Below are positions 640-12,554 of a stretch of 47,813 bases of DNA, one piece after another. The notes beneath the pieces were generated by a model. It searched no databases. It worked only from the letters and a program-made list of their open reading frames with translations, and was not told the origin of the DNA. The translations under genes were made by a program, and so were the position numbers. The stretch spans positions 1 to 47,813 of the forward strand of contig CALVNW010000010.1 in NCBI GenBank assembly GCA_944350015.1. The letters run 5' to 3'. Each line of letters starts with the position of its first letter. Positions within the stretch are counted from its first letter, which is position 1. The stretch comes from an uncultured Clostridia bacterium (lineage in GTDB: Bacteria; Bacillota; Clostridia; Christensenellales; UBA1242).

Positions 640-1302
640 TTATTCTTCTAGAAGTGCATTTAATGTATTGTCGAATGCATCCTTAAATTTCTGAGAGTGA
701 GTCTGTCCTATAAGTTTGATATTTCCAATATCAAATAAAATATCTTTATCAGTTATCTCATCAATTTCTATTTTATCTTCAATAAAGCTTCTATAAAGAA
801 TATCTCCATAATGGATTTTTAAGTTTGCTAGTAGGGTACTAAACAATTCATTTTTATCAAGTTCTTTCACGCGCGCGTTTTCATGTATTATTTTTATTTT
901 TTTAATATCATAATAATCTATTGTTAGCACTCCGTTGCCTTCATCGTGGAAGCCGACTTCCGATAAGTTAAACTTGTTTGGTAATTTGTTTCCGAAAAGG
1001 ACATCGAAATCCACATAAATATGCATTTCGTTTTTTAGTTCAGCATATCTTTGTAACACTCCTTTTTCTTCTAGTGAAGTAATAATATTTCTTAGTTGAC
1101 GTTCTTTTACGTGTAATACTGGTAAGTCTTCAAGTATCTTTTTGTAGGTTAGTCTATAATATCTTTTTCCACTTATAAACTTGTACCTCATGTGCCCACT
1201 ATTAATAAATTGAGCAACATAATCTAGAAATAATAATTCATTAAGTTTAAGATCTAATCTTAAAACTATCTCTTGTTCAAATTCAAAAATAAATTGTCGC
1301 AT
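640..1302 (-). CDS. Probable replication protein: winged helix plus DnaA-N-like domain
   Basis: The protein is 220 aa with a GGAGG ribosome site. Residues about 15-100 read like the winged-helix N-terminus of phage and plasmid replication (DnaD/RepA-like) proteins: a helix with LDYVAQF, then the YRLTYKKILEDLP segment, and a recognition-helix-like RQLRNIITSLEEKGVL. Residues about 150-218 resemble DnaA domain I, with an amphipathic start (LLANLKIHYGDILY) and a final FKDAFDNTLNALLE helix. Such chimeras occur in mobile elements and are thought to recruit helicase machinery. Start and stop are coupled to the upstream 87-aa gene through a TAATG overlap. An AT-rich repeat region lies directly downstream. 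The function is inferred from fold-like patterns, not from a strong motif. Confidence 0.45.
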   Translation of the reverse strand: MRQFIFEFEQEIVLRLDLKLNELLFLDYVAQFINSGHMRYKFISGKRYYRLTYKKILEDLPVLHVKERQLRNIITSLEEKGVLQRYAELKNEMHIYVDFDVLFGNKLPNKFNLSEVGFHDEGNGVLTIDYYDIKKIKIIHENARVKELDKNELFSTLLANLKIHYGDILYRSFIEDKIEIDEITDKDILFDIGNIKLIGQTHSQKFKDAFDNTLNALLEE

Positions 1303-1565
1303 TAAACCTCCTTGCTGAATAAAAGATTTCTTAAATCTCTATTTAAGGTTGAGATGTTAAAATATTTCAACACATACTGTTTTCTTTCTTCGAATTCTCG
1401 AGTGTTTGGTGCCTCAAATAAATAAACAGCCAACATATCCTCTCTTCGTTCAATTAGTTGTTTCATTTTGTCAATTTCAAATAAATCTAAAATCTGGACA
1501 AACTTATCATCCATGTCTAGAAGTTCAGATAATTCAATATCAAAATTTTCTTTTAATTTAATCAT
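1302..1565 (-). CDS. Small hypothetical protein, 87 aa
   Basis: The protein is acidic and helical (87 aa). It has a clear GGAGG site 5 bases before the ATG. Its stop codon overlaps the start of the downstream replication-type gene as TAATG, so the two are translationally coupled and probably act together. I see no recognisable motif. The sequence is rich in Asp, Glu, Leu and Phe, with short helices such as FVQILDLFEIDKMKQLI. It could be a partner or regulator of the replication protein. That is inferred only from the coupling. Confidence 0.6.
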   Translation of the reverse strand: MIKLKENFDIELSELLDMDDKFVQILDLFEIDKMKQLIERREDMLAVYLFEAPNTREFEERKQYVLKYFNISTLNRDLRNLLFSKEV

Positions 1566-1581
1566 ATTTCCTCCAATTAAA

Positions 1582-1624
1582 TTTTTTGTTGCAACAAAAA
1601 AAGAGTAAACTTTAATTTACTCTT
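1582..1624 (-). terminator. Palindrome and rho-independent terminator
   Basis: AAGAGTAAA (1601-1609) pairs perfectly with TTTACTCTT (1616-1624) around a 6-base loop. On the minus strand it is followed by a run of seven T, so it terminates the 256-aa gene at 1676-2446. Directly beside it, 1582-1601 is a perfect 20-base palindrome (T6 GTTG / CAAC A6). This lies just upstream of the ribosome site of the 87-aa gene and may be an operator. Confidence 0.75.
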
Positions 1625-1675
1625 CGCACTCATTATATAATAGGATTGAAATAGCACTAAAATCGTCCCAAAATT

Positions 1676-2446
1676 TTAAAAATTACCATCTTCGTCCATT
1701 ATTTCACTTACTCTAGCTAGTTCTGTGTAAGCCCATTTCATATCTTGAAAATATCTATCTGGCTTATCATTAACTTCTAGATCTAATATAATATTACAAA
1801 GAAGTTCGCTTTCCATTTCTGCTAAGCGTTTGTTCCTTTTACTTTTAAAAATAGGTAAAGCAACTTTGTATGAAAATAAATTGCTTTGTATAATATATTC
1901 TTGTGCAACCATTTTATATATTTTATTAACTAAATTCTCGGCAGTTTTCTTTTTGCCATCTAAATATTTTTTTGAATATTCACTTAACGACATTCCATTT
2001 TTAAATATTTCAGTATAGGGAAGTTCATAATCTTTTAAATCACTTTGAAATAAGTTGTTAAGAAATTTTATATCTTTTTTAATGTTTATAAGTTCGTCTT
2101 TTGTAATCCCTACAAACACACAATCTTTTATATTTTTTCCTTCATTCGTTAGTAAAAATTTATCCAATTTCGCTTGATCGTTTTTTAATCTACGAAGCAC
2201 AACTCTTGCTCGTTCATATGGGTTTGCGGGCAAGTATCTTTTTTCATAACTTTTACTTATCTCTTTTGAATACTCATCATTATTTTTCTTTTCCAACTCT
2301 TCTTTGCAAATCTCAACAGAGCTTTTAATATCTTCAATCAGCTCTTTATAATCTGCTAGTTTCTTTGAAGAATTGTTTTCAAAATTGTCTAAGCTATCAC
2401 ATATTTCATCAAACATTGCTTCAATAGTTGCTCTTTTATTTGCCAT
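1676..2446 (-). CDS. Hypothetical coiled-coil protein, 256 aa
   Basis: I do not recognise this 256-aa protein. It is highly charged and mostly helical. Residues about 15-75 are Lys/Glu-rich with heptad-like spacing (coiled coil), followed by a basic stretch (ARVVLRRLKNDQAKLDKFL) and further helices. There is no signal peptide or membrane segment. It starts at ATG 2446 with a weak AGG site and has its own terminator downstream, so it is probably a single-gene transcript. It lies between the replication-type genes and the methyltransferase operon of the element. A structural or DNA-associated role is possible, but nothing in the sequence shows it. Confidence 0.55.
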   Translation of the reverse strand: MANKRATIEAMFDEICDSLDNFENNSSKKLADYKELIEDIKSSVEICKEELEKKNNDEYSKEISKSYEKRYLPANPYERARVVLRRLKNDQAKLDKFLLTNEGKNIKDCVFVGITKDELINIKKDIKFLNNLFQSDLKDYELPYTEIFKNGMSLSEYSKKYLDGKKKTAENLVNKIYKMVAQEYIIQSNLFSYKVALPIFKSKRNKRLAEMESELLCNIILDLEVNDKPDRYFQDMKWAYTELARVSEIMDEDGNF

Positions 2447-2494: not shown

Positions 2495-2518
2495 AAAAAA
2501 GAACGGATTTCTCCGTTC
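2495..2518 (-). terminator. Rho-independent terminator of the GHKL/methyltransferase operon
   Basis: GAACGGA (2501-2507) and TCCGTTC (2512-2518) form a 7-bp stem with a 4-base loop. On the minus strand a T run (2495-2500) follows. It lies 15 bp past the stop of the LAGLIDADG-like gene and marks the end of the operon. Confidence 0.85.
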
Positions 2519-2532
2519 AATTATAAAAATTT

Positions 2533-3405
2533 TTACTTATAATATCCTAAATCTTTAGCCAATTCAGTCCAAGAATTATAGTGTTTTCCTCTTATTTTCT
2601 CTGGTAAAGAAGCATCGTTCTCCATAGGATGATGAAGTTTAATCCTTGTTTTTGCCGCTTTTTCCCAATAAAATTGATGGGTTTGTTCTTTAGTTAAATG
2701 TAAAGTTAACTCTTGAGCATATTTCTCTAATGATTTTTGTTTATGACTAATATTGAATCCAATTGGAAGGAATTCATTTGCCCAAATTTTTAATTGATGT
2801 TCTTTTTTCCAATACAATGGTTTTCCTGCATTATATTTTTTTAAATTTGAATCTCTAAAATTTGGATGCCCAAAATCAATAGTTTGTACAGGAATGTTTA
2901 AATCCTTTAACATATTTGCTATATCGATTACCATTTGCCAATTGCCTGGAACCTCAATATAAACCCTATGTTGACCTTCTTGCCCATAAGCAATATTGGT
3001 TTTTCGAATATATCCTGTCACATCTGCTAGCCCCCTTAAAAGCGCTTGCTTTTCCTCATTTGTCATAGAAAAAAGCTCTTGGTTCATAACCATTGAAGAA
3101 TGATGTTTCTTATCTCCAATAAATCTTAAAATTTCTCTCATCGTATATTCTTCATTTTGCATTGTGAAAGAAAAACTTGTAGCTCTTTTGTTTTCGGATA
3201 TTGGTAACTTATATCCAATAAGAGGTTCTATAATATTTCTAATGTCAACCAAACTGCTTTTTACATAAATAGAAACCTCTCTTCCTTCATCGTCCATCAA
3301 ATTTTTGTGAGGTATTTCGATGGAAATTGTTGTAGTGTCGTTATTCTTATGAACTTCACCATTTCCTAAAATCATTCCTATTAAATAAGCCATTTGTGTA
3401 TTCAT
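2533..3405 (-). CDS. LAGLIDADG-like protein beside methyltransferase
   Basis: The protein is 290 aa. Two LAGLIDADG-like helices can be seen: AYLIGMILGNGEV (6-18) and LLRGLADVTGYI (122-133), each followed by a beta-rich stretch as in the homing-endonuclease fold. The position normally holding the metal-binding Asp/Glu is Asn in the first helix (N15) and Thr in the second (T130); D127 is two residues upstream. A C-terminal region (about 225-290, with LPEKIRGKHYNSWTELAKDL) is extra to a minimal enzyme. The gene follows the fused methyltransferase by 13 bp and ends the operon. Two roles are plausible: the restriction nuclease of this modification cluster, or a DNA-binding protein that lost cleavage. 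There is no intron or intein context, so ordinary homing is unlikely. Confidence 0.6.
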   Translation of the reverse strand: MNTQMAYLIGMILGNGEVHKNNDTTTISIEIPHKNLMDDEGREVSIYVKSSLVDIRNIIEPLIGYKLPISENKRATSFSFTMQNEEYTMREILRFIGDKKHHSSMVMNQELFSMTNEEKQALLRGLADVTGYIRKTNIAYGQEGQHRVYIEVPGNWQMVIDIANMLKDLNIPVQTIDFGHPNFRDSNLKKYNAGKPLYWKKEHQLKIWANEFLPIGFNISHKQKSLEKYAQELTLHLTKEQTHQFYWEKAAKTRIKLHHPMENDASLPEKIRGKHYNSWTELAKDLGYYK

Positions 3406-3418
3406 TAGTTTTTTCTCC

Positions 3419-5533
3419 TTAATTTTTATTGTTAGCTAAGTTTTTATAAATTGTGTCAGCGATTGCTTTAGCCATTAATGGGGGAACAGCATTGCCTATT
3501 TGTGTTCTAATTGCAACTTTAGTCCCATAAAATACAAATTTATCATCAAACGATTGTAGTCTTGCAGCTTCTCTTGGGGTTATAGCTCTATTTAAAAATG
3601 GATGATTGTTTGTACCATTTGAAGCCGCATCAAATCTAGTATCAATTGTAGGTGATGGCTCATCCCACTTTAAACGCCCCCAAGTTGAATGAAATTTTTG
3701 TTTTCCTAATAGTTCCTTTGGTAGATATTCTTTACCTTTTTCTGGAGGGATCATTTTTAATTTATCTATCGCTATTTTAGCATGATTCGAAGCTTTATGA
3801 TTATATAATTTTTCGGAATTTTTTCTCATACTTATTTGATATTGAGATGTTGCAAAAGTTTTGTAGTTTTGTTCGAATTCGCCTTCATTGGCTTCCCAAT
3901 ATGCTAAGTCTTCTATTGCCTCACGAACCGTTACCGACTTACTTACGGTAGGTAATGGAAGAGTTATCTTTTTTTCTTTACAGCAAATGAATATTGTTCT
4001 TTCTCTTGTTTGAGGCACTCCAAAATCCGTCGCTTTAAGAACTCCGACATCAACTTTGTATCCCAATCTTTCAATAGTGCAAACAATTTCATTTTTGAAC
4101 CAACCATTAGATGTAGATAGTAAAGCTTTTACATTTTCAATTACAAATACTTCTGGTTGCAGTTTCTCTACCAAATTAAGATATTCTACAAATAAGAAGT
4201 TCCTTGGATCTTTTAGTCCTAATTTTTTTCCTTTTAAAGAAAACCCTTGACAAGGTGGTCCGCCAATTATCATATTAACGCCACGTTTTATTGATAATTC
4301 TACAACCTTATCTTTTATCGTGTTGTTTTTAATATCTCCAACAACCACATCTACTTCAGGCATATTTTTCTTTAAAGTTTCTACTAATTTTTCATCAATA
4401 TCTAATGCTACAACTGTTTTAAAGTGTGGATTTTGATGCATTCCATATGACATACCACCAGCACCGCAAAACAAGTCTAACATTTTAAATTGTTTTTCGT
4501 CTATCATTTTTCTTTTATTTCTAATTAATATTCTCTTAAATATTTCCTTTCCATTTATTGTAGGTTTAAATAAATCAAACTCATTGTCAGAACCATGATT
4601 TGCCTCTCCTACAATCTCAAACTGTTCTTCATTATGGTATTTTAAGTAGGTAAGAGGAACGCCCATAATGCCCGAATAATCCTTAGGAATATCCAAAACT
4701 TTTGCTACATTGATTGCATCGTAATTATCAAATTTAGGGTATTTCTTTGGGTCGTAATATGCTGTCAGTTCTAACTTTAAGTGTTTTCTTTCAGTGTCCA
4801 AATTTGTTAACCACATTGCATTGCCTAAACTTCGCCATTTTTGTCCGTTTTCGTCTACCCAATATCTAGTAGTCCTAGGTTGTGTATCTTTGGGAACTTT
4901 GAATGCCATATCGCCAAACTTATATCCAATCCAAGCTTTGCCACTCTTTATTAATGGAAACACTTCTTTGTATGTTAAAGCATTTTGATTACCAATAATT
5001 AAATATTTTTTATTGTATCTTATAAGTAATGAAAATAGTTCAGCAAATTTTGAAAATGGGGGGTTGGTAACGACAATATCCGCCTCTTTTAAATACTCAA
5101 TACATTCGTTACTACGAAAATCTCCGTCGCCCTTTAATTTTTTTACCAACCTTTTACTTTTTAGAAATTTTAAAATTTTGTCATCATTTATTTCTTTTTC
5201 TTCTTTGATATCAATTTTATTTACAATCATTACATAAGCATGATCCTTACTCAACACTTTATTATTGGTGTCTTTTAAACCAAATTCATCAACAATACGA
5301 GAGTTTTTATATGACGTACAAATTAGTTTTTTTAATTTAAATGTATTAAAATTTTTTAAGAAGTAATTAGCAAAAGCAGATTTGTAAGGGTCATCGCAAT
5401 TACACAGAACAATTTTATTTTTAAACTGGTCTACATAATGAGAAACTTCATCTTCGACTGTTTTATAATCAGTGTACCATTCGTCAGTATTGTCTGAATA
5501 CTTTGCTTTATTCAATATCGAGTTCCCATTCAT
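3419..5533 (-). CDS. Fused EcoRI-type adenine and cytosine-C5 DNA methyltransferase
   Basis: I chose the ATG at 5533 (704 aa) because AAAGGAG lies 8 bases before it; an upstream in-frame start at 5578 has no such site. Residues 1-340 look like the EcoRI adenine methyltransferase family: an early WYTDY segment, a CNCDDPY motif (44-50), and the catalytic TNPPFSKF (156-163). Residues about 349-704 are a complete C5-cytosine methyltransferase: DLFCGAGG (353-360), GGPPCQG with nucleophile C428, IENV (465-468), QTRER (508-512), and a C-terminal PREAARLQSF and IGNAVPP. One polypeptide could thus place both m6A and m5C marks. It sits between the DUF6339-like gene and the LAGLIDADG-like gene of the operon. 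Target sites cannot be read from the sequence. Confidence 0.88.
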   Translation of the reverse strand: MNGNSILNKAKYSDNTDEWYTDYKTVEDEVSHYVDQFKNKIVLCNCDDPYKSAFANYFLKNFNTFKLKKLICTSYKNSRIVDEFGLKDTNNKVLSKDHAYVMIVNKIDIKEEKEINDDKILKFLKSKRLVKKLKGDGDFRSNECIEYLKEADIVVTNPPFSKFAELFSLLIRYNKKYLIIGNQNALTYKEVFPLIKSGKAWIGYKFGDMAFKVPKDTQPRTTRYWVDENGQKWRSLGNAMWLTNLDTERKHLKLELTAYYDPKKYPKFDNYDAINVAKVLDIPKDYSGIMGVPLTYLKYHNEEQFEIVGEANHGSDNEFDLFKPTINGKEIFKRILIRNKRKMIDEKQFKMLDLFCGAGGMSYGMHQNPHFKTVVALDIDEKLVETLKKNMPEVDVVVGDIKNNTIKDKVVELSIKRGVNMIIGGPPCQGFSLKGKKLGLKDPRNFLFVEYLNLVEKLQPEVFVIENVKALLSTSNGWFKNEIVCTIERLGYKVDVGVLKATDFGVPQTRERTIFICCKEKKITLPLPTVSKSVTVREAIEDLAYWEANEGEFEQNYKTFATSQYQISMRKNSEKLYNHKASNHAKIAIDKLKMIPPEKGKEYLPKELLGKQKFHSTWGRLKWDEPSPTIDTRFDAASNGTNNHPFLNRAITPREAARLQSFDDKFVFYGTKVAIRTQIGNAVPPLMAKAIADTIYKNLANNKN

Positions 5534-5661
5534 TAAAATTACTCCTTTGTTTTTCATTAAGTATACCATACTTTTCATAAAATTGTATTGATATTGAAAT
5601 ATTTTATTGAAAAACCAAAAAATTTTAATGGAGATGAGTCGAAAATATTGTAATTATTCTT

Positions 5662-6390
5662 TTAATTTCTCATATCTAGTATGTAATTTTTTGAAATTTC
5701 TTGAATTTCTTCAACAGATAAGAAATCCAACATGCTCACTGCTCCATATCTATTTAAATATTTAGCCAAACTGCGCCATTCTTCCATGATAACATCTTCA
5801 TATTCTATAGAGTCATTTATTTCTGCAATTGCACTTAATATGCCTACAATTACATTTTTATTCATGCTAAATTTTCTTTCAACTAAACTCAAACATAGAT
5901 CCGAGTTTGATAATAAAAGTTCGGTCAATACAAATGGGTTGCTTCGTCCTTCTTGATATGTTAAATACCCATACCACCACAACCTAGATATTCCATTTCT
6001 AAATAGTCCAATTCTTGATCCTTTAAACGAATCGCAAAAAAATCTATCCTTAATAGAACCTTCAGTATCTGGATTCCATCTATGCTGAATATAGTTAAAA
6101 AATACTTCGTGTGACAACCATGTCCACAAATAAACATTGCTTGCTTGTTCAGGAGTTAGCTTTTTCATGGACATATATAAATTTTTTACATTAATTATAT
6201 CATCTTCGATGTTGTGAGTATTTTCATATAAAGAGAAATTGTCAACTACTACACTAGACTCTTTTGAAAAACCACCTTGAGGAAAAATAGTTTCAGTTAT
6301 AGAATCTTTTAATTTATATAATTCCAGATTCTTATTAACACCTTTGTATAGTTGTTCATAAGCCCCTTCTGTTAAATACTTTAACTTCAT
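5662..6390 (-). CDS. DUF6339-like protein in GHKL operon
   Basis: The protein is 242 aa, with AAAGGAG before the ATG. It overlaps the upstream 297-aa gene by one base (TAATG). The central region holds LWTWLSHEVFFNYIQHRW (about 107-124), then RFFCDS, GISRLWWYGYLTY and a helical C-terminus. This aromatic-rich pattern is what I remember of the DUF6339 family, found in restriction-like and defence operons, but I cannot confirm it by search. No catalytic motif of a known nuclease is obvious. The gap to the following methyltransferase is 128 bp, the longest in the operon. The tight coupling to the 297-aa and GHKL genes suggests one complex. Confidence 0.6.
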   Translation of the reverse strand: MKLKYLTEGAYEQLYKGVNKNLELYKLKDSITETIFPQGGFSKESSVVVDNFSLYENTHNIEDDIINVKNLYMSMKKLTPEQASNVYLWTWLSHEVFFNYIQHRWNPDTEGSIKDRFFCDSFKGSRIGLFRNGISRLWWYGYLTYQEGRSNPFVLTELLLSNSDLCLSLVERKFSMNKNVIVGILSAIAEINDSIEYEDVIMEEWRSLAKYLNRYGAVSMLDFLSVEEIQEISKNYILDMRN

Positions 6391-7283
6391 TATTTTTCTC
6401 CTTTGTCACTGTATAGTTCATTAATTATATAATCAATATTTGACACAGCTGTTGATACTATAGGTAATATTTTATTTGCTACTTCAGATAATGAGTAAGT
6501 GGAATTTAAATCAATTTTTAAATGTTTAAGACGAGACGACAGAACTACATACCATTTTTTTGTTTTATAGCTTTCCAAATCATCTTCATTTGCATTTTTT
6601 ATTGCAGATAATACGTCTACAAGTGCAGGTGTAACAAATAAACTTGATAAAACAATTCTGTAGCTAGGTTCTTGTGATATTTTATTATAAAGACCATGCA
6701 ATCTTTCGTTTAAAGTGATTGATATATGATCATACTCCCAGCTTACTGTATAATCTTCTTTTAAATCATAGTCCACATGTATTTTAAAAATTGAAGGTTT
6801 ATCAGCTAGAGGGTCAAATTTGTTTAAAATAATATGTAAACCATTAGCTTCTGCTAAAAAATCACCTTTTCTTATAGAAATAGTAGAACTTCCAAACAAT
6901 ACCTTGTTATGCTCATTTAGAATAAATCCATCTTTATCTACATTAGAAACGATAAAAGGCTTTATGTCTATATAATCTCCTAACTCATTTTTATTTATTT
7001 CAAGCTCTAATTTTGTTGATTCACTATCAAAAGAAAAAGCCTTTCTATAATTAGTCATTTTACTTTCTAAGTATAAAACAACCTTAGCTTCTTTATCTAG
7101 AATCATTTTCTCTAAACCAAAACAAATAAGTTCATATTCTATTGTTAAAGTAAACTTTCCATTAATTTCTTTTTTAGAATTAAAAACTTCTTCTTGATCG
7201 CTAATTGTAAACTTGCAATCAATGTAATCCTCCGAACCTTCTTTTAAAATAGGGTGGGGAAAGCTAACATTGGTTCTTCTCAT
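6390..7283 (-). CDS. Unknown 297-aa protein coupled to GHKL ATPase
   Basis: I do not recognise this protein. It starts MRRTNVSFPHPILKEG. Residues 20-190 alternate short beta-like strands (KFTLTIEYELICFG, TVSWEYDHISITL); residues about 200-290 are helical (LSSLFVTPALVDVLSAIK). There is no membrane segment or signal peptide. The ribosome site GAGGT lies within the last codons of the GHKL gene, with only a 2-bp gap between genes. The stop overlaps the start of the DUF6339-like gene. So it is translated in step with both neighbours and is probably a core subunit of the same system. The PHPIL start and mixed strand-helix layout could suit a DNA- or protein-binding adaptor, which is speculation. 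Confidence 0.65.
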   Translation of the reverse strand: MRRTNVSFPHPILKEGSEDYIDCKFTISDQEEVFNSKKEINGKFTLTIEYELICFGLEKMILDKEAKVVLYLESKMTNYRKAFSFDSESTKLELEINKNELGDYIDIKPFIVSNVDKDGFILNEHNKVLFGSSTISIRKGDFLAEANGLHIILNKFDPLADKPSIFKIHVDYDLKEDYTVSWEYDHISITLNERLHGLYNKISQEPSYRIVLSSLFVTPALVDVLSAIKNANEDDLESYKTKKWYVVLSSRLKHLKIDLNSTYSLSEVANKILPIVSTAVSNIDYIINELYSDKGEK

Positions 7284-7285
7284 AT

Positions 7286-9196
7286 CTACCTCACTTGTAA
7301 GTCAATAAGCATTTTTTCTTTGTATTCTAATGTTACAAAAATTTCATACTTTTGTCCGGCTTTTAAATTTGTTAATGTAAAGTATTCTTGTTTATTACAA
7401 TTGGTCGATTTACTGTTTATTGTATATTTTAATATAGGTATACTTTCCCTTCTGCTATCGTCACCAATTGCCTTTAGTTCAATTTGCACTTTATCATAAT
7501 CTATGGTTGGGCATAAGATGATTCTATAAATTCCGTTTGGTACACTTACGGGCATTATCCTTTGAATAGACATTGATTTAGCTTCTTCAAATAAACTTTT
7601 AGTACCTTGATTTTTAGTTACTACGTCATTGTGTCCATTTCCATTATTTGTTCCGCCACTAGATGTATCGTTACTAATCCCATTTGAATTTTCGTTACGA
7701 ATTTCCTCATCTAAAGAATCGTCTCCAAGTTCTTTCAATCCTTGTACTGCAACTCTATTCATTAGAGTTGGTTTATCTTTGATTTTCTCTATTGTGGAAT
7801 CTAAATTTAAACTACTTGCATTTTTCTCATTTCCGACTCCTGAATCCAATGTAAAATCATCAAAAGACAAATACTCACTGACGCCTTCCGGGTCTATTTC
7901 CTTAACATTTTCAGTTTTACAATATTCATTAATTGAGTTGTTTGTCCAATTTATAATTTGCGAGCGAATGTTTTTTGCTCTTTTTCTTTCGTTCTCGTCA
8001 TTATCAATTATGTCAGGATCCCATTTATCGTGCTTAGGCGGTTCTATATTCTTTAAGATAGAATTTAATTTTTCACCATTAACAATTAACACAGCGGCAT
8101 ATTTTGTTAAGATATTTTTTGTTCTAATTCTTACAACCATACCTATAGAGCGCATCTCAACTATCTTTTTATTGTAATTGTCATCCTTTCTAATGTGTAA
8201 TTCTACATCTTCGTCTTCTAAAATTTTTGATCTCATGTGTTTAGAGTCTTCGCTAATTAGTGTTTCAAAAAAAGCAAAAGTATCTCTAAGTTTTTCGTCT
8301 TCGGGCTCTATTTCTAAATAATGTTTAATTCTCGTCAAAATAGTTTCTTTGTTTATTAATCTTGAACCAACTTTAACTTCCAATAAATCTTTATAAATCG
8401 AAACAAAGAAATTATTTATTATAGCTTTTTCAATATTGTTTTCCCAAGAATCTATTTTATTTAAACCTATAATTATAACATCTGTTCCATATTCGCTTCT
8501 TTTAAAATTATCTCTAAAACTACAGTTGTCATCCTCAAAAATTGGAGATCTTTCATTGCCTTCCACTTTTTGATAAAATCCTACACCTTGAGTAAATTCT
8601 CCACTTGTATTTTTATGAGTTACAAGACGAGAGACTCCTTGGAAAGCTTTTACGCCGTCTTCTGCGTATGTATTATAAAATACAGTCCTTAACGAAGAAC
8701 ATGCAAATGGAGCATTTTTTCCTATTCCATAAGAACCAGCACTAGTATTTCCTTTATTTGTAACCCCATCAGAATGTGTTAATGCTCGCCAAACTGACTT
8801 TTCCTGAATGCTTAGTTTTGATCCTGTTAAGCCTGTGGTATTGTAATCACTTATTACTAGACAATCAATTAAATCATTGGATAGAGTATTTTTTGCTTCC
8901 TGCAAAAACGAATCTAATCTAGTATCTTTTTTATTCTGCCAATATTTTTCACAAGCATCAAAAATTAAATCTAAATCTTGAAGTGCATTATACTTCTTTT
9001 TTTCAAAACTTTTAATTTGAAACTCCAGTTTGACTTTAGAGTCCTTTGTTCTTTTGGCGTCTAAAGAATTTTGACATATTTCTCTAGCCAAATTATCGTA
9101 AAGATCTGAACCTTTAAATGTAGCTATGCCTCCATTATTAAAGCCTTGTTCAGAACCACCATCTAAAAGAGGAAATCTCCATTGAGTGTTATTCAT
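7286..9196 (-). CDS. GHKL-family ATPase (MutL/Hsp90/MORC-type fold)
   Basis: The protein is 636 aa, with AGGAG before ATG 9196. The GHKL ATP-binding motifs are present in order: N-box LAREICQNSLDAK (36-48, with E39, N43, D46), a motif-II-like VISDYNTTGL (114-123), and a glycine lid GSYGIGKNAPF (154-164). A central transducer-like region follows (about 235-400, including KYAAVLIVNGEKL). The tail (about 450-540) is low-complexity, Asn/Ser/Gly-rich and probably flexible. The C-terminal 95 residues are beta-rich. GHKL ATPases dimerise on ATP binding and act as clamps or switches. MORC-like versions are known in prokaryotic restriction-modification operons. Here it is second in an operon whose later genes include a double methyltransferase, so an ATP-driven DNA clamp or translocation switch is likely. 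No nuclease motif is seen inside it. Confidence 0.85.
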   Translation of the reverse strand: MNNTQWRFPLLDGGSEQGFNNGGIATFKGSDLYDNLAREICQNSLDAKRTKDSKVKLEFQIKSFEKKKYNALQDLDLIFDACEKYWQNKKDTRLDSFLQEAKNTLSNDLIDCLVISDYNTTGLTGSKLSIQEKSVWRALTHSDGVTNKGNTSAGSYGIGKNAPFACSSLRTVFYNTYAEDGVKAFQGVSRLVTHKNTSGEFTQGVGFYQKVEGNERSPIFEDDNCSFRDNFKRSEYGTDVIIIGLNKIDSWENNIEKAIINNFFVSIYKDLLEVKVGSRLINKETILTRIKHYLEIEPEDEKLRDTFAFFETLISEDSKHMRSKILEDEDVELHIRKDDNYNKKIVEMRSIGMVVRIRTKNILTKYAAVLIVNGEKLNSILKNIEPPKHDKWDPDIIDNDENERKRAKNIRSQIINWTNNSINEYCKTENVKEIDPEGVSEYLSFDDFTLDSGVGNEKNASSLNLDSTIEKIKDKPTLMNRVAVQGLKELGDDSLDEEIRNENSNGISNDTSSGGTNNGNGHNDVVTKNQGTKSLFEEAKSMSIQRIMPVSVPNGIYRIILCPTIDYDKVQIELKAIGDDSRRESIPILKYTINSKSTNCNKQEYFTLTNLKAGQKYEIFVTLEYKEKMLIDLQVR

Positions 9197-9205
9197 TTGT
9201 TTCTC

Positions 9206-9424
9206 CTATAATTTAAATTTAGAATTATCGTTATCCGCACAAGAAAATTTCATTCTAGAAATCTTCAATTCCTTTTCTATTGAATTAAAAATTTTAGAAA
9301 TATCATCATCTGAATAGTCGTATGTTGACTTTGATGATAAATTTCCTAGTAATCTTACCATATCAATTATTTTATTTGTTCTAGCTTCGGCAAGTCTTTT
9401 AAATTTTTCTCTTTTGCTTTCCAT
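9206..9424 (-). CDS. Small first gene of the GHKL operon, 72 aa
   Basis: The protein is 72 aa, with GGAGG 6 bases before ATG 9424 and a near-consensus promoter directly upstream. It begins with a basic helix (REKFKRLAEARTNKIIDMVRLLGNL), followed by an acidic helix (DDDISKIFNSIEKELKISRMKF). I remember this type of small helical protein as common at the front of defence and mobile-element operons, but without a known function. It is separated from the GHKL gene by 9 bp, so it is co-translated. It may be a regulator or a small subunit. Confidence 0.7.
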   Translation of the reverse strand: MESKREKFKRLAEARTNKIIDMVRLLGNLSSKSTYDYSDDDISKIFNSIEKELKISRMKFSCADNDNSKFKL

Positions 9425-9448
9425 AGTATACCTCCATAATCTGAATTA

Positions 9449-9477
9449 AATATATCACTATATTTTTAAAATGTCAA
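9449..9477 (-). promoter_or_regulatory. Strong sigma-A promoter of the GHKL operon
   Basis: On the minus strand, TTGACA (9472-9477) and TATATT (9449-9454) are separated by exactly 17 bases. The ATG is at 9424. This promoter lies just past the terminator of the upstream methyltransferase gene, so the six-gene operon is transcribed independently. Confidence 0.8.
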
Positions 9478-9504: not shown

Positions 9505-9540
9505 TTAAAAAATAACAGGCAAATATTTTAAGCCTGTTAT
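9505..9540 (-). terminator. Terminator overlapping the C5 methyltransferase stop
   Basis: ATAACAGGC (9512-9520) pairs perfectly with GCCTGTTAT (9532-9540) over an 11-base loop. On the minus strand an eight-T-like run follows (9505-9511). The stem includes the stop codon of the methyltransferase gene (9537-9539). Confidence 0.85.
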
Positions 9541-10796
9541 AATATTTTTAAAATATCTTCAATTTGTTTAAAGATTTGTTCAAGAACATTTACTACAATA
9601 CTATTGCCTGCCAAATGTAACAAAGTATCTCTTGTAAAGAACTTAGAAGATCCTCTGCCTTTTAAGTCAGCGTTGTTCACTTTTTCAAAATCTGTTTCGT
9701 CAAAACCCATCAGCATAAATGATTCTCTAGGTGTTATATATCTAAATTTACTTTTGCCGTTGTCTATATTAAAATAAATATTTCCTGAATTTGGATGACG
9801 ATCTTGTTTTGTTGTTAAGGTAGCAGCGAAGTCTCTTTCTATATATTGATTGTTCTCGTCTATTAATTTTGCATTATCGTTCCAAATATCTCTTCTTGAT
9901 TTTGTGTCATTTGGTTGAGATTCTAACGCCTCTTGTAAATAAATTGTATTAGAATAATCTACCTTTAATATTTCTTTTAGTGAATCTTTGTGTATGTTTA
10001 AGGAGCTAACATAACTCATATCTTCCAAGTTGTGTTTATTAAAATACGCATCAAGTTTTTTATTTAACTCCTCATCAAAATTTGTTAAAAAACTTATCAT
10101 TATTAATCTTTTTCTATTTTGAGCTGCTCCAAAATCTTTAGCATTAAGCGTGTAAATTTTATTATAATATCCAAGCTCAACGAGAATATCTTGCCACTCT
10201 TGAAAATTATGTTTATGTCTTTCACTTAATAAAGTGGCTACATTTTCAAGTACCAAGCTTTTAGGTAGGGGTAGATCTAATTTGATTCTTTCATTTAGTA
10301 TTCTTTCAACTTGCCATAATAATCCTGAACGATTATTTGCATCCCTATCTATTCCTTTGTTGTATCCATGAAATGCTCCAACATTTGATAAATCTTGACA
10401 AGGAAATGAATATGTCATTATATCAACAGTCTTTGGCAGCATATCCCCAGTCAAAGATTTTATGTCTATTAAATTTCCAGTATTTAATATAGAAGAATAT
10501 ATTTGACGCAATGTTTCTTCTGGAAGTGAAGATAAGTATTTTTCATTTATTGGATTCTTACAATCTCCGCTTAAATTATATTTACTTAATTCATTCAAAA
10601 GTTCTAATTTTGTCAATCCTAAAGAGCCACTGTGTAATAATCCATCATTATGAATCAAGTCATAAGCAACAAGGGCATGTATATCCCATTCACAGGTGTT
10701 AACTGTTTCAAAATTTATATTTATATTTTCAAGAGCTTTTGCTTGGCTGCCAATTCCGCTAAAAAGCTCAACCACATTAAGTTTTTTATTTTTCAT
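9537..10796 (-). CDS. DNA cytosine-C5 methyltransferase
   Basis: The protein is 419 aa with all main C5-methyltransferase motifs: ELFSGIGSQ (10-18, SAM site), SFPCQDLS (130-137, nucleophile C133), VLENVATLL (182-190), AAQNRKRLI (224-232), then YITPRESFMLMGF and LAGNSIVVNVLEQI near the end. It uses an AAGGA site. It overlaps the upstream Phd-like gene by 11 bases, and its stop lies inside a terminator. The pair therefore forms a separate two-gene transcript upstream of the GHKL operon. It is the second C5 methyltransferase in this 9-kb cluster and is not closely similar to the fused one. It could provide protective methylation for the neighbouring system or be an independent modification unit. 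Confidence 0.93.
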   Translation of the reverse strand: MKNKKLNVVELFSGIGSQAKALENININFETVNTCEWDIHALVAYDLIHNDGLLHSGSLGLTKLELLNELSKYNLSGDCKNPINEKYLSSLPEETLRQIYSSILNTGNLIDIKSLTGDMLPKTVDIMTYSFPCQDLSNVGAFHGYNKGIDRDANNRSGLLWQVERILNERIKLDLPLPKSLVLENVATLLSERHKHNFQEWQDILVELGYYNKIYTLNAKDFGAAQNRKRLIMISFLTNFDEELNKKLDAYFNKHNLEDMSYVSSLNIHKDSLKEILKVDYSNTIYLQEALESQPNDTKSRRDIWNDNAKLIDENNQYIERDFAATLTTKQDRHPNSGNIYFNIDNGKSKFRYITPRESFMLMGFDETDFEKVNNADLKGRGSSKFFTRDTLLHLAGNSIVVNVLEQIFKQIEDILKIL

Positions 10797-10992
10797 TTTT
10801 AATTCCTTTTCTTTTGATGTATTCAGAATATTCCATTATTACTACAAACGGTTTATTGTTTTTCATTACAACAGTATCGACTTTGTTATCATGAATTTTA
10901 TTAATTATTTTGGCAGCATGACCTTGAGATAATTCCGATGCATTAACACTAGGCATTTCTACTGGGAACAAATTATATCTTACCTTTCTCAT
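10786..10992 (-). CDS. Phd/YefM-type antitoxin-like regulator
   Basis: The protein is 68 aa from ATG 10992. A longer frame to 11028 exists, but the promoter -35 box lies on it, so I reject it. The sequence MPSVNASELSQG, then AKIINKIHDN, TVVMKNNKPFVVIMEYSEYI is the Phd/YefM fold signature: an N-terminal DNA-binding part and a short tail. Normally such genes precede a RelE- or Doc-type toxin. Here the next gene, overlapping by 11 bases, is a DNA methyltransferase and no toxin is present. It may act as a repressor controlling the methyltransferase, like a C protein. The -10 box ends 8 bases before the ATG and no ribosome site is seen, so the mRNA may be leaderless. M25 (10956) is an alternative start. 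Confidence 0.75.
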   Translation of the reverse strand: MRKVRYNLFPVEMPSVNASELSQGHAAKIINKIHDNKVDTVVMKNNKPFVVIMEYSEYIKRKGIKNEK

Positions 10993-10999
10993 AATGTAT

Positions 11000-11028
11000 A
11001 TTATATTATAATACTTATAATAAGTCAA
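11000..11028 (-). promoter_or_regulatory. Promoter of the Phd-like/methyltransferase pair, with dyad
   Basis: On the minus strand, TTGACT (11023-11028) and TATAAT (11000-11005) have a 17-base spacer. The spacer contains two palindromic TTATAA hexamers three bases apart, which could be an operator for the Phd-like protein (autoregulation). The expected transcription start falls at or within a base or two of ATG 10992. Confidence 0.7.
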
Positions 11029-11209: not shown

Positions 11210-12508
11210 TTATATTAACTCTTTTGTTTTACCTACCAAATAAAGTGGAATGTTTATAAGGTTATCATCGTCTTTATAATTCAACATTGAGTATCTTATA
11301 GATTTTACAGGTTGATACTTTTCTCTATAAGCTTTTAAGCTTGGATAATTAACTGAAGTATTTGATTTTACTTCTATTGGATATATTTCTGAACCATCTT
11401 GTACCACAAAGTCAGTTTCATATCTTCCAAATGTAAAATATCTTGGTTCAACATCGAATGTTTCTTTTATTTGTTGCAGAACAAAATTTTCTGTTAATGC
11501 TCCTTTGAATTGAAAATCTTTTTCTAATACAATACTTGCATTATCAATACCGGCCATGTGTTTTAAAAGCCCAGTATCAAATAGATATAATTTAAATGCA
11601 TTTAATTCATCATAACCTTTTAATGGATATTGTGGGGTAGATGATTGATAAACTCTATTTATCATTCCTGCAGAAACTAACCATTCTATGGCTTCTTCAA
11701 AATCTCTTGCTCTAGCACCTTCTTGAACTTTGCCATAAATAAATTTTTTATTTTCTTTTGATAGTTGTGGGACTATATTTCTAAATACCATTAATATACG
11801 ACCACTATTTACTTTTCCGTTATGTTTACCAAAATCATTTTCATATAATGTAACAAGTTCATCTTGAATTTCTGAAACCTTCTTTGGATCTTTATATTTT
11901 ATCCACGAGTCAACACATTCTGGCAAACCACCTACAATTAAATAATTTTGATAAGCTTCTTTAAATTTTGTTGTAAATATAGATTCTAGGAATGTTCCAT
12001 CTTTCGCTGCTATTGTTTGATAGCATTTATATAATGTTTCATCTGTTGCTTTTAGAAATTCTTCAAAGCTTAAAGGATAAATATTTAATTTGTTTACCTG
12101 TCCGACAGGATAAGATTTTGGCTGAGCCAAAAGCGTTCCAAGAAGACTACCTGCAGAAATAATACAGTACTCTTTTGCATTTTCATTAAAATATTTCAAA
12201 GAATTTAAAGCGTCGCTACATTCTTGAATTTCATCAAATATTATAAGTGTTTTTTCTGGCTTTATATCTTCACCACAAACTAAACTTAATCTTTCTATTA
12301 ATCTTTCGGCAGATTTATTAACCTTAAATAATTCTTTCAAATCGTTATCTTCATCAAAGTTGAAATATACATAGTTATCAAAAAATCTTTTACCGAATTC
12401 TTTCATAATCCAAGTTTTGCCAACTTGTCTTGCACCTTGAAGAATTAAAGGTTTTCTGTCTTTTGAATTTTTCCATTCTGTTAGTTTTTCAAATACAAAT
12501 CTTTCCAT
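11210..12508 (-). CDS. AAA ATPase with DUF4143 C-terminal domain
   Basis: The chosen start is ATG 12508 (432 aa) behind GGAGGG; a TTG upstream overlaps that site. The N-terminal P-loop domain has Walker A GARQVGKT (25-32), Walker B LIIFDEIQEC and a sensor-like ISAGSLLG. The C-terminal DUF4143 part holds ETDFVVQDGSEIYPIEVKSN, which resembles a PD-(D/E)xK nuclease core (D...E-V-K). This large family of archaeal/bacterial ATPases is widespread, often in mobile elements, and its physiological role is unsettled. It has its own terminator. A set of direct repeats lies upstream (12555-12635), suggesting regulated expression. Linkage to the methyltransferase cluster is by location only. Confidence 0.9.
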   Translation of the reverse strand: MERFVFEKLTEWKNSKDRKPLILQGARQVGKTWIMKEFGKRFFDNYVYFNFDEDNDLKELFKVNKSAERLIERLSLVCGEDIKPEKTLIIFDEIQECSDALNSLKYFNENAKEYCIISAGSLLGTLLAQPKSYPVGQVNKLNIYPLSFEEFLKATDETLYKCYQTIAAKDGTFLESIFTTKFKEAYQNYLIVGGLPECVDSWIKYKDPKKVSEIQDELVTLYENDFGKHNGKVNSGRILMVFRNIVPQLSKENKKFIYGKVQEGARARDFEEAIEWLVSAGMINRVYQSSTPQYPLKGYDELNAFKLYLFDTGLLKHMAGIDNASIVLEKDFQFKGALTENFVLQQIKETFDVEPRYFTFGRYETDFVVQDGSEIYPIEVKSNTSVNYPSLKAYREKYQPVKSIRYSMLNYKDDDNLINIPLYLVGKTKELI

Positions 12509-12554
12509 TATTCCCTCCAACTATTGCCATTATATCATAAAGATTATAAAAGTG

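Follow-up and report, generated by a model that had tools for sequence, protein, structure and literature searches.

A candidate two-module restriction-type island built around a MORC-like ATPase in an uncultured Clostridia bacterium

Prokaryotic MORC-like ATPases of the GHKL type were linked to restriction systems in 2008 by Iyer, Abhiman and Aravind, and an ExxxH motif in the C-terminal part of the S5 domain was given as the signature of the paraMORC2 group (PMC2292703). In the literature that we found, a Shedu-type (paraMORC3) protein is the only member of these prokaryotic defence ATPases to have been tested (PMC12137116). Here, we analyse a locus of an uncultured Clostridia bacterium in which such an ATPase stands between DNA methyltransferases. 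The stretch of DNA studied, hereafter the window, has 47,813 nucleotides and is the entire contig CALVNW010000010.1 of a 1.25-Mb genome assembled in 28 contigs. Towards its left end, the minus strand encodes a four-gene core consisting of a small protein (p72), a GHKL-type ATPase, a 297-amino acid (aa) protein and a DUF6339 protein. We tentatively favour, as quite possible but short of probable, a two-module restriction-type defence island with a clamp mechanism. Module 1, a 5-methylcytosine (m5C) methyltransferase and the core, would mark DNA and load the clamp, while module 2, which pairs a fusion methyltransferase with a LAGLIDADG-like protein, would be a second type II-like system.

The closest catalogued system is PADLOC PDC-M33 (A/B/C), a candidate system only, which matches the window in its three core proteins and in their order; PDC stands for 'phage defence candidate' (PMC11514479), whereas the portions of PMC9252829 compared make no mention of the PDC names. 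None of the PADLOC models matches p72, and the window adds the m5C methyltransferase and a second restriction-modification module. The first-pass annotation had stated that the gene combination could not be named, which no longer holds, as three core proteins correspond to PDC-M33 and the signature of paraMORC2 is present in the ATPase. With paraMORC2 loci (PMC2292703) window-type loci share the GHKL motifs, ExxxH, and m5C methyltransferase and Vsr neighbours. The paraMORC2 text stresses helicase neighbours, whereas the ten scanned genes of the window include no helicase, and partners like the 297-aa and DUF6339 proteins are not described in the text portions compared, although they may appear in its figure. 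The Shedu protein VcSduA is, as proposed for the core ATPase, a GHKL ATPase in defence, with a dimer clamp model, but it has a fused C-terminal DUF4263 nuclease of restriction endonuclease (RE) fold that the window ATPase lacks (PMC12137116). GHKL genes beside m5C methylases are also known from the HEF_HK/Response_reg_2 systems, whereas the window proteins match neither HEF_HK nor Response_reg_2 (PMC8011034). Similarly, a system of Z1-domain, DUF4220 and cytosine methyltransferase genes shares the cytosine methyltransferase and a MORC-type neighbour, but no Z1 or PD-(D/E)XK-DUF4220 gene occurs among the ten window genes scanned (PMC9523054).

Type II restriction-modification systems with an EcoRI-type methyltransferase resemble module 2, which likewise contains PF13651 and PF00145 domains. 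Module 2 differs in the fusion of its two methyltransferase domains and in its degenerate LAGLIDADG-like partner; in relatives it includes a small PD-(D/E)XK-like gene, while the window has no candidate for a cognate endonuclease. Mza and Z1-AIPR systems work with Z1, AIPR and PD-(D/E)XK partners, and the ten window genes scanned include none of these. A literature search that covered few subscription papers yielded no paper naming PDC-M33 or DUF6339, and no title among the matches listed named LAGLIDADG restriction enzymes. A combined search for PDC-M33, M33A, M33B, DUF6339, PF19866 and paraMORC2 returned, among the matches listed, only PMC2292703 as on the subject.

The four-gene core and its proteins

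The six minus-strand open reading frames (ORFs) claimed by the first-pass annotation are present between 2533 and 9424, all with intact frames; its set left out the neighbouring m5C methyltransferase gene at 9537-10796. On the minus strand of this low-GC stretch, the order is thus m5C methyltransferase, p72, GHKL-type ATPase, 297-aa protein, DUF6339, fusion methyltransferase and LAGLIDADG-like protein:

9537..10796, minus strand: m5C DNA methyltransferase, 419 aa (PF00145 E 5.3e-49); likely methylation partner of the core
9449..9477, minus strand: sigma-70-like promoter of the core, TTGACA-17-TATATT with extended -10 (TG); a consensus match only, 11/12 positions
9206..9424, minus strand: p72, small conserved protein, first core gene; homologues lie ahead of the GHKL gene
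7286..9196, minus strand: GHKL-type ATPase (by motif), PDC-M33A, paraMORC2-like (PDLC04582 E 1.1e-152; motif residues)
6390..7283, minus strand: 297-aa protein, PDC-M33B (PDLC04583 E 1.3e-46; structure model)
5662..6390, minus strand: DUF6339 protein, PDC-M33C (PF19866 E 1.7e-49; PDLC04586 E 1.4e-58; structure model)
5560..5568, minus strand: putative extended -10 element TGGTATACT, upstream of the gene for the fusion methyltransferase, read by eye, no -35
3419..5533, minus strand: fusion methyltransferase, EcoRI-type adenine methyltransferase plus m5C methyltransferase (PF13651 E 1.3e-111, PF00145 E 6.8e-73); the ORF opens at 5578
2533..3405, minus strand: degenerate LAGLIDADG-like protein (Pfam E 0.02 and 0.05; profile comparison); probably the subunit that recognises DNA
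2501..2518, minus strand: hairpin-plus-T terminator directly 3' of the LAGLIDADG-like gene (terminator scan)

The p72, GHKL, 297-aa and DUF6339 genes form a conserved unit. Our sample contained 92 GHKL loci (L numbers) besides the window: those from scanning genomes with a narrow alignment of GHKL proteins, which are the nearer loci as the best 80 of 226 relatives were kept, three loci of relatives and nine plasmid loci. Two copies of the window (L004, L094) and four short loci with LAGLIDADG-like genes (L095-L098) were dropped before counting. The order GHKL, 297-aa protein, DUF6339 was found in 71 of the 74 loci with at least 2.5 kb of downstream sequence, the window being excluded from this count and from that of m5C methyltransferases within 9 kb given below. 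The exceptions are L064, which has no single frame for the 297-aa protein, L012, whose third protein is not recognised by the model, and L049, whose GHKL frame has 292 aa. Of the gaps between core genes, 81/88 and 76/82 measure at most 30 bp. The p72 gene precedes the GHKL gene in 64 of 91 loci, window counted, and is also present in two genus-mates (genomes G030, G034) and an order-mate (G079); for the protein itself, Pfam gave nothing below E 0.036 and PADLOC nothing at all. A search of 398 genomes of the phylum gave eight DUF6339 genes including that of the window, and all seven others adjoin the 297-aa gene and the end of a GHKL gene. The core ATPase occurs in 4 of 101 relatives, the genome of the window counted. 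Beyond these, the core set was found on plasmids of Lactococcus, Ligilactobacillus, Priestia, Planococcus, Deinococcus, Arthrobacter, Paenarthrobacter and one haloarchaeon; Enterococcus has a diverged version of it. Most loci found belong to Bacillota, and some are melainabacterial or cyanobacterial, in a search seeded with Bacillota proteins.

By contrast, the single six-gene operon of the first-pass annotation breaks up into two modules, as the core and the pair of methyltransferase and LAGLIDADG-like genes occur apart elsewhere. Unconserved order and independently occurring genes, which that annotation had named as speaking against its proposal, were indeed found for the six genes as a unit, but not for the four-gene core. 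Within the window, the p72 and GHKL genes are 9 bp apart and the GHKL and 297-aa genes 2 bp (ORF coordinates), and the 297-aa and DUF6339 genes overlap by TAATG at 6390; both the 2-bp gap and the TAATG coupling had been annotated correctly. The claim of one promoter and one terminator bracketing six tightly spaced genes was not confirmed. An 11/12 promoter match (9477-9449) and a terminator (2518-2501) do lie at the two ends, but between them the DUF6339 and fusion methyltransferase genes are separated by 128 bp, if the latter starts at 5533, and a putative extended -10 lies inside. Position 5533 is an ATG preceded by an AGGAG site, and the element at 5568-5560, which is absent from the promoter-scan listing, lies just upstream, which makes 5578, where the ORF opens, an unlikely true start. 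As promoter-like sites in the window barely exceed the shuffled expectation (57 versus 53.4), the core promoter is notable only for its strength and place; terminator-like sites number 5, with 2.5 expected.

The motif residues of the ATPase were counted in the 90 GHKL proteins that have 600 aa or more. Fifteen positions are invariant (E39, Q42, D46, D117, T120, G122, G154, G157, G159, S167, G237, R349, M353, E385 and H389, each 90/90), and N43 (89/90) and T238 (88/90) nearly so. The motif order E-xxx-N, DxNTxG, GSxGIGK and GT is, we take it, that of GHKL ATPases. The clear GHKL motifs noted in the first-pass annotation are therefore upheld at the level of residues (E39, D117, G154, G157 and G159 in all 90, N43 in 89), but not by a profile match (see below). 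The ExxxH motif, E385 and H389, is likewise present in 90/90 and would lie in the C-terminal part of an S5 fold, which is assumed from the paraMORC2 description. As judged from sequence matches and gene order, module 1, i.e. the m5C methyltransferase with p72-GHKL-297-aa-DUF6339, belongs to PDC-M33 and carries the signature of paraMORC2.

Structure models were obtained for both partner proteins. The model of the 297-aa protein (pLDDT 88.5, pTM 0.60) gave many weak fold matches of fn3/Ig type, the best with E 4.7e-3; in general shape, the protein is probably an Ig/fn3-like β-sandwich with a helical C-terminus. An enzymatic role was rejected for it, given that the matches are fn3/cytokine-receptor-type sandwiches with TMq of at most 0.26 among the best 50 of 1318. 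The assignment of the third core protein as DUF6339-like was confirmed (PF19866, listed above). Its model is helical and confident (64 sequences, pLDDT 94.7), and N67, W89, R104, L137 and W139 are invariant in the 64 sequences. A search of the PDB with the model yielded no significant fold match (best E 0.85). DUF6339 was also considered as a nuclease and set aside: no Pfam nuclease matched, the best PDB sequence match was a designed protein (E 0.0046) and the best fold match was the one just given. PDB sequence searches with profiles of the 297-aa, GHKL, LAGLIDADG-like and PD-(D/E)XK-like proteins returned nothing useful. From these features we infer that the core is a clamp ATPase with two fixed partners, the 297-aa and DUF6339 proteins. 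Our paraMORC2-like unit thus has two near-constant partners, one of which resembles no PDB structure significantly.

The core could instead be a guard, comparable to PrrC in its relation to a type I restriction enzyme. It would stop the cell on sensing DNA ends made by phage, or failure of or attack on the restriction system next to it, with DUF6339 or the 297-aa protein as the toxic effector. A confidently modelled, unmatched fold with five invariant residues is what a novel effector could have, and the partners of the core vary widely (see below); but neither a toxin family or fold match nor an antidote gene was recognised, and we consider this explanation unlikely.

DNA methyltransferases that accompany the core

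The gene company of the core was surveyed in 42 non-window loci with more than 8 kb on each side of the GHKL gene (long-flank loci). An m5C methyltransferase, found by clustering, lies within 9 kb of the GHKL gene in 31 of them. Among the pooled m5C proteins, 57 of 66 bear both motif patterns, most of the others showing a CAPCQ-type variant by eye, and a further one, from L023, was confirmed by Pfam; a profile matching 65/66 was built from members of the pool and is no independent check. Six of the remaining 11 loci (L065, L078, L080, L005, L007, L061) have N6/N4 methyltransferases confirmed by Pfam. As background, 61 genomes of relatives, about 84 Mb by summed rounded sizes, hold 61 m5C match segments, fragments included, so that one would expect an m5C methyltransferase in some 1-2% of such stretches, the background taxa being different from those of the loci. 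The core and the methyltransferases beside it in most long-flank loci offer a clear gene set for studying methylation-dependent defence and the action of MORC-type clamps on DNA.

In a tree of the 90 GHKL proteins, the window falls into a supported clade of 26 rows. Twenty-five of these rows, window counted, have an m5C methyltransferase by clustering, and 16 also a gene of the Vsr cluster, which Pfam confirmed in both loci checked (L023, L030); the one row without the methyltransferase, L014, is cut by a contig end. Neighbour labels track the tree more than shuffled labels do, yet require 12 changes on this quick tree with several long branches, which indicates that partners were swapped. An apparent partner exchange of this kind is seen at L091, where the methyltransferase directly ahead of p72 (L091:84-1436) is 51.6% identical to the 419-aa methyltransferase of the window, although the GHKL protein of L091 is distant from ours on the tree. 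The partner methyltransferases also differ in chemistry, with MmeI-type, D12 and N6/N4 enzymes besides m5C.

Further protein families recur beside the core. A large protein of about 900-1180 aa when whole adjoins it often (L072:13438-16191 and 16 other loci; by position also L106:13004-16549 and L107:4881-8006). Some members have a zinc-ribbon-like start; the L072 protein matches RpoA-CTD and sigma-r4 models, and that of L106 weakly matches PglW. In close relatives, two small families lie directly 3' of DUF6339, one at L015:13560-14120, L021:13630-14202 and L054:13603-14169, the other at L016:13527-13961 and L019:13537-13971. One member of each was scanned without a Pfam or PADLOC match; by eye they resemble what we take to be PUA/EVE- and SRA-like readers of modified bases.

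A proposed clamp mechanism and the restriction enzymes near the core

Self-marking coupled to an ATP-driven clamp appears to us the likeliest mechanism for module 1. The methyltransferase at 9537-10796 would mark the DNA of the cell, and the GHKL-type protein would dimerise on ATP into a MutL/MORC-like clamp that carries the 297-aa and DUF6339 proteins as fixed partners. This clamp would load on DNA that lacks the mark, or that is nicked or cut at the mark, and block or destroy it, with DUF6339 as the presumed effector. The choice of target would come from the adjoining restriction-modification partner rather than from the core, which would account for the variation among partners. Both modules together may thus tell own from foreign DNA. 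The first-pass annotation had proposed that methylation marks self and that the other proteins sense or act on unmarked DNA; in kind, i.e. as an ATPase module tied to DNA methylation and probably to defence, this proposal survives, but not as a six-gene unit.

Several observations weigh against the island reading. No GHKL or HATPase family of Pfam or NCBIfam matches the ATPase, and its profile found no PDB chain; the GHKL identity is thus a putative one read from motifs. As the motif residues are invariant, the lack of a family match may reflect either a gap in the libraries or a very diverged GHKL branch. In hhalign comparisons, the ATPase aligned weakly with MutL of relatives, in register of the first motif (probability 3.1%, E 0.014), compared with 0.9% for GyrB-type proteins, 0.5% for kinases and 0.0-0.7% for five unrelated controls. 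Among the core proteins and the ten window genes scanned, no nuclease was recognised. Five of 43 long-flank loci (L076, L042, L044, L049, L056) have no confirmed methyltransferase by clustering and motif pattern, one 262-aa ORF of L049 matching the pattern. The methyltransferase and p72 genes are 67-225 bp apart in the 17 plus-strand loci where they adjoin. In the window, a terminator-like hairpin (about 9540-9506, -11.9 kcal/mol), whose loop exceeds the limit of the terminator scan and which is hence unlisted there, marks the end of the methyltransferase gene, followed by the strong promoter-like site. The m5C methyltransferase and the core are therefore probably separate transcription units. 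Further, the PD-(D/E)XK-like gene that accompanies module 2 in relatives (see below) was not found in this genome, in a search of its 28 contigs without a positive control. Finally, restriction enzymes lie close to some cores: at least 3 of 13 close-clade loci have an HpaII-type or Mrr gene, and GmrSD domains occur in at least three neighbour proteins, so that the role of the core may be limited to helping other enzymes.

The close-clade survey behind these last counts covered 99 neighbours of the 13 loci, m5C and Vsr genes left out, and its family counts are minimum numbers taken from the best 25 of 105 and of 108 families. It gave at least two HpaII-type genes and at least three GmrSD N-terminal domains. 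Ten nearer genes were then scanned singly per library, which added Mrr (L029), a TIR protein (L015) and a gene of the candidate system PDC-M46A (L036); the others were transposase-type genes, a peptidase-like protein, a pyruvate phosphate dikinase or without match. In the plasmid loci, an annotated type II restriction endonuclease (REase) gene lies near the core in 5 of 9 cases (AlwI-type in L007 and L009, MutH/Sau3AI-type in L006, type II REase in L010 and L011). Judging from both surveys, the core occurs with and, as far as recognised, without restriction enzymes.

These data bear on the explanation that the core helps type II or other restriction enzymes as an accessory, with the clamp gathering or holding sites or cut ends for a separate REase, and with the partner enzyme of the window lost or encoded elsewhere. 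The plasmid REase genes, the HpaII-type genes in two and the Mrr gene in one of the 13 close-clade loci (minimum numbers), and the varied chemistry of the partner methyltransferases (MmeI-type, D12, N6/N4) would fit it. At close-clade loci such as L018, L028 and L030, on the other hand, the near genes examined are a methyltransferase, the core and, in L028 and L030, Vsr, with no recognised REase, a weak objection as only part of the genes were scanned singly and REases diverge fast. We regard an accessory role as rather unlikely, if a serious contender.

A bolder version of the self-marking clamp is one that we rate as doubtful. Here, p72-GHKL(ExxxH)-297-aa-DUF6339 would provide the restriction function within a new class of restriction-modification systems, found in bacteria and haloarchaea: a MORC/MutL-like ATP-driven clamp with DUF6339 as an effector of new helical fold, without a classical nuclease, and with targets borrowed from the adjacent DNA methyltransferase. 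In the window, the dead LAGLIDADG-like reader, lacking a nuclease of its own, may be an added targeting part.

The fusion methyltransferase and its LAGLIDADG-like partner

The methyltransferase of module 2 had been annotated as having double specificity, in agreement with its PF13651 and PF00145 matches (E 1.3e-111 and 6.8e-73), and the LAGLIDADG-like gene follows after 13 bp. Methyltransferase and LAGLIDADG-like genes recur together on two L. plantarum plasmids, which are near-identical and encode the same LAGLIDADG-like protein, in two phages filed as Ca. Heliusvirales, in the genomes of two genus-mates (G039, G023) and on four viral contigs. A further genome, G073 (L097, L098, L105), has only fragments with internal stops and stands outside these ten loci. 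None of the 92 non-window GHKL loci has a LAGLIDADG-like gene in the stretches examined, and no GHKL gene occurs in the non-window LAGLIDADG-like loci (stretches of 6.5 to 11 kb, plus a further 9.5 kb for G039). The methyltransferase is a fusion in L099-L103. By eye, adjacent EcoRI-type and Dcm-type genes take its place in L112 and L113, and these split genes suggest that the fusion is derived or reversible. L104, L110 and L111 have two other adjacent methyltransferase genes, of Eco57I/N6 type by Pfam for one L104 gene, the rest read by eye.

In all ten non-window loci, the LAGLIDADG-like gene is overlapped or followed by an ORF of 157-179 aa whose product has the pattern D-(16)-E-A-K. The one member scanned matched only DUF7194 in Pfam (E 0.039) and nothing in PADLOC, and the profile of the family found no PDB chain; from its motif, it is a putative PD-(D/E)XK-like nuclease. 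The window lacks this gene, and the terminator stands at its place.

The homing-endonuclease-like assignment of the last protein is weaker than the first-pass annotation had it. Besides the weak Pfam matches, a 10-row profile of the family, with the window in and L102 out, matched a pooled alignment of 11 LAGLIDADG proteins with a probability of 71% (E 3.6e-5), compared with 0.3-0.4% for three unrelated controls; against the same LAGLIDADG proteins taken singly, it reached only 0.3-11.6%. The two motifs end in N and T in 10/10 aligned proteins, at a position that is presumably the catalytic acid in active LAGLIDADG enzymes. With both acids replaced in 10/10, an active homing endonuclease was discarded as a candidate, and the protein is probably a DNA reader rather than a cutter. 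As for the suggestion that the LAGLIDADG-like or the DUF6339 protein acts on the DNA, the former is unlikely to cut and the latter matches no nuclease family or fold. In module 2, the LAGLIDADG-like subunit would read DNA and the PD-(D/E)XK-like subunit would cut it; as the latter is absent from the window, module 2 is probably modification-only in this genome. The trio of methyltransferase, dead LAGLIDADG-like protein and small PD-(D/E)XK-like protein, as found on phages and small plasmids, could plausibly be an unusual restriction enzyme whose reading and cutting functions lie on different chains.

At L108:18427-19644, a 405-aa type II REase (PDLC03514, HNH C-terminus) lies beside an m5C methyltransferase-like gene and has a FIRGFCELRASI stretch resembling the second LAGLIDADG motif. 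It is possibly a LAGLIDADG-like reader fused to a nuclease; the hhalign comparison with our LAGLIDADG-like family was weak (probability 6%, E 0.006).

The missing subunit also fits a decaying island, in which both modules are remnants that kept their methyltransferases and lost their nucleases, and the core is passive. Module 2 is without the nuclease-like gene found in 10/10 relatives, and GC content is low, 27-32% over the first ~14 kb versus 30-42%, mostly above 34%, beyond 15 kb, where the ORFs look chromosomal (comM-, topA-, trmFO-, hslV/hslU- and ileS-like by eye). But the six frames are intact, the ATP-motif and ExxxH residues are kept, and so are the close gene spacing and the strong promoter-like site, which makes decay quite improbable to us.

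Three ORFs left of the fusion methyltransferase module (p256, p87 and p220; window 640-2446) were rejected as parts of the system, as the pooled loci hold no homologues besides the window's own copies; for p220, there is a weak match to phage replication initiators (E 1.2e-5). On the other side, the m5C methyltransferase gene overlaps at its start with a small ORF (10786-11028) that by eye encodes a Phd-like antitoxin; an AAA/DUF4143 ATPase gene (11210-12520) lies farther out. AAA_14/DUF4143 matches are present among the neighbours of close-clade loci as well.

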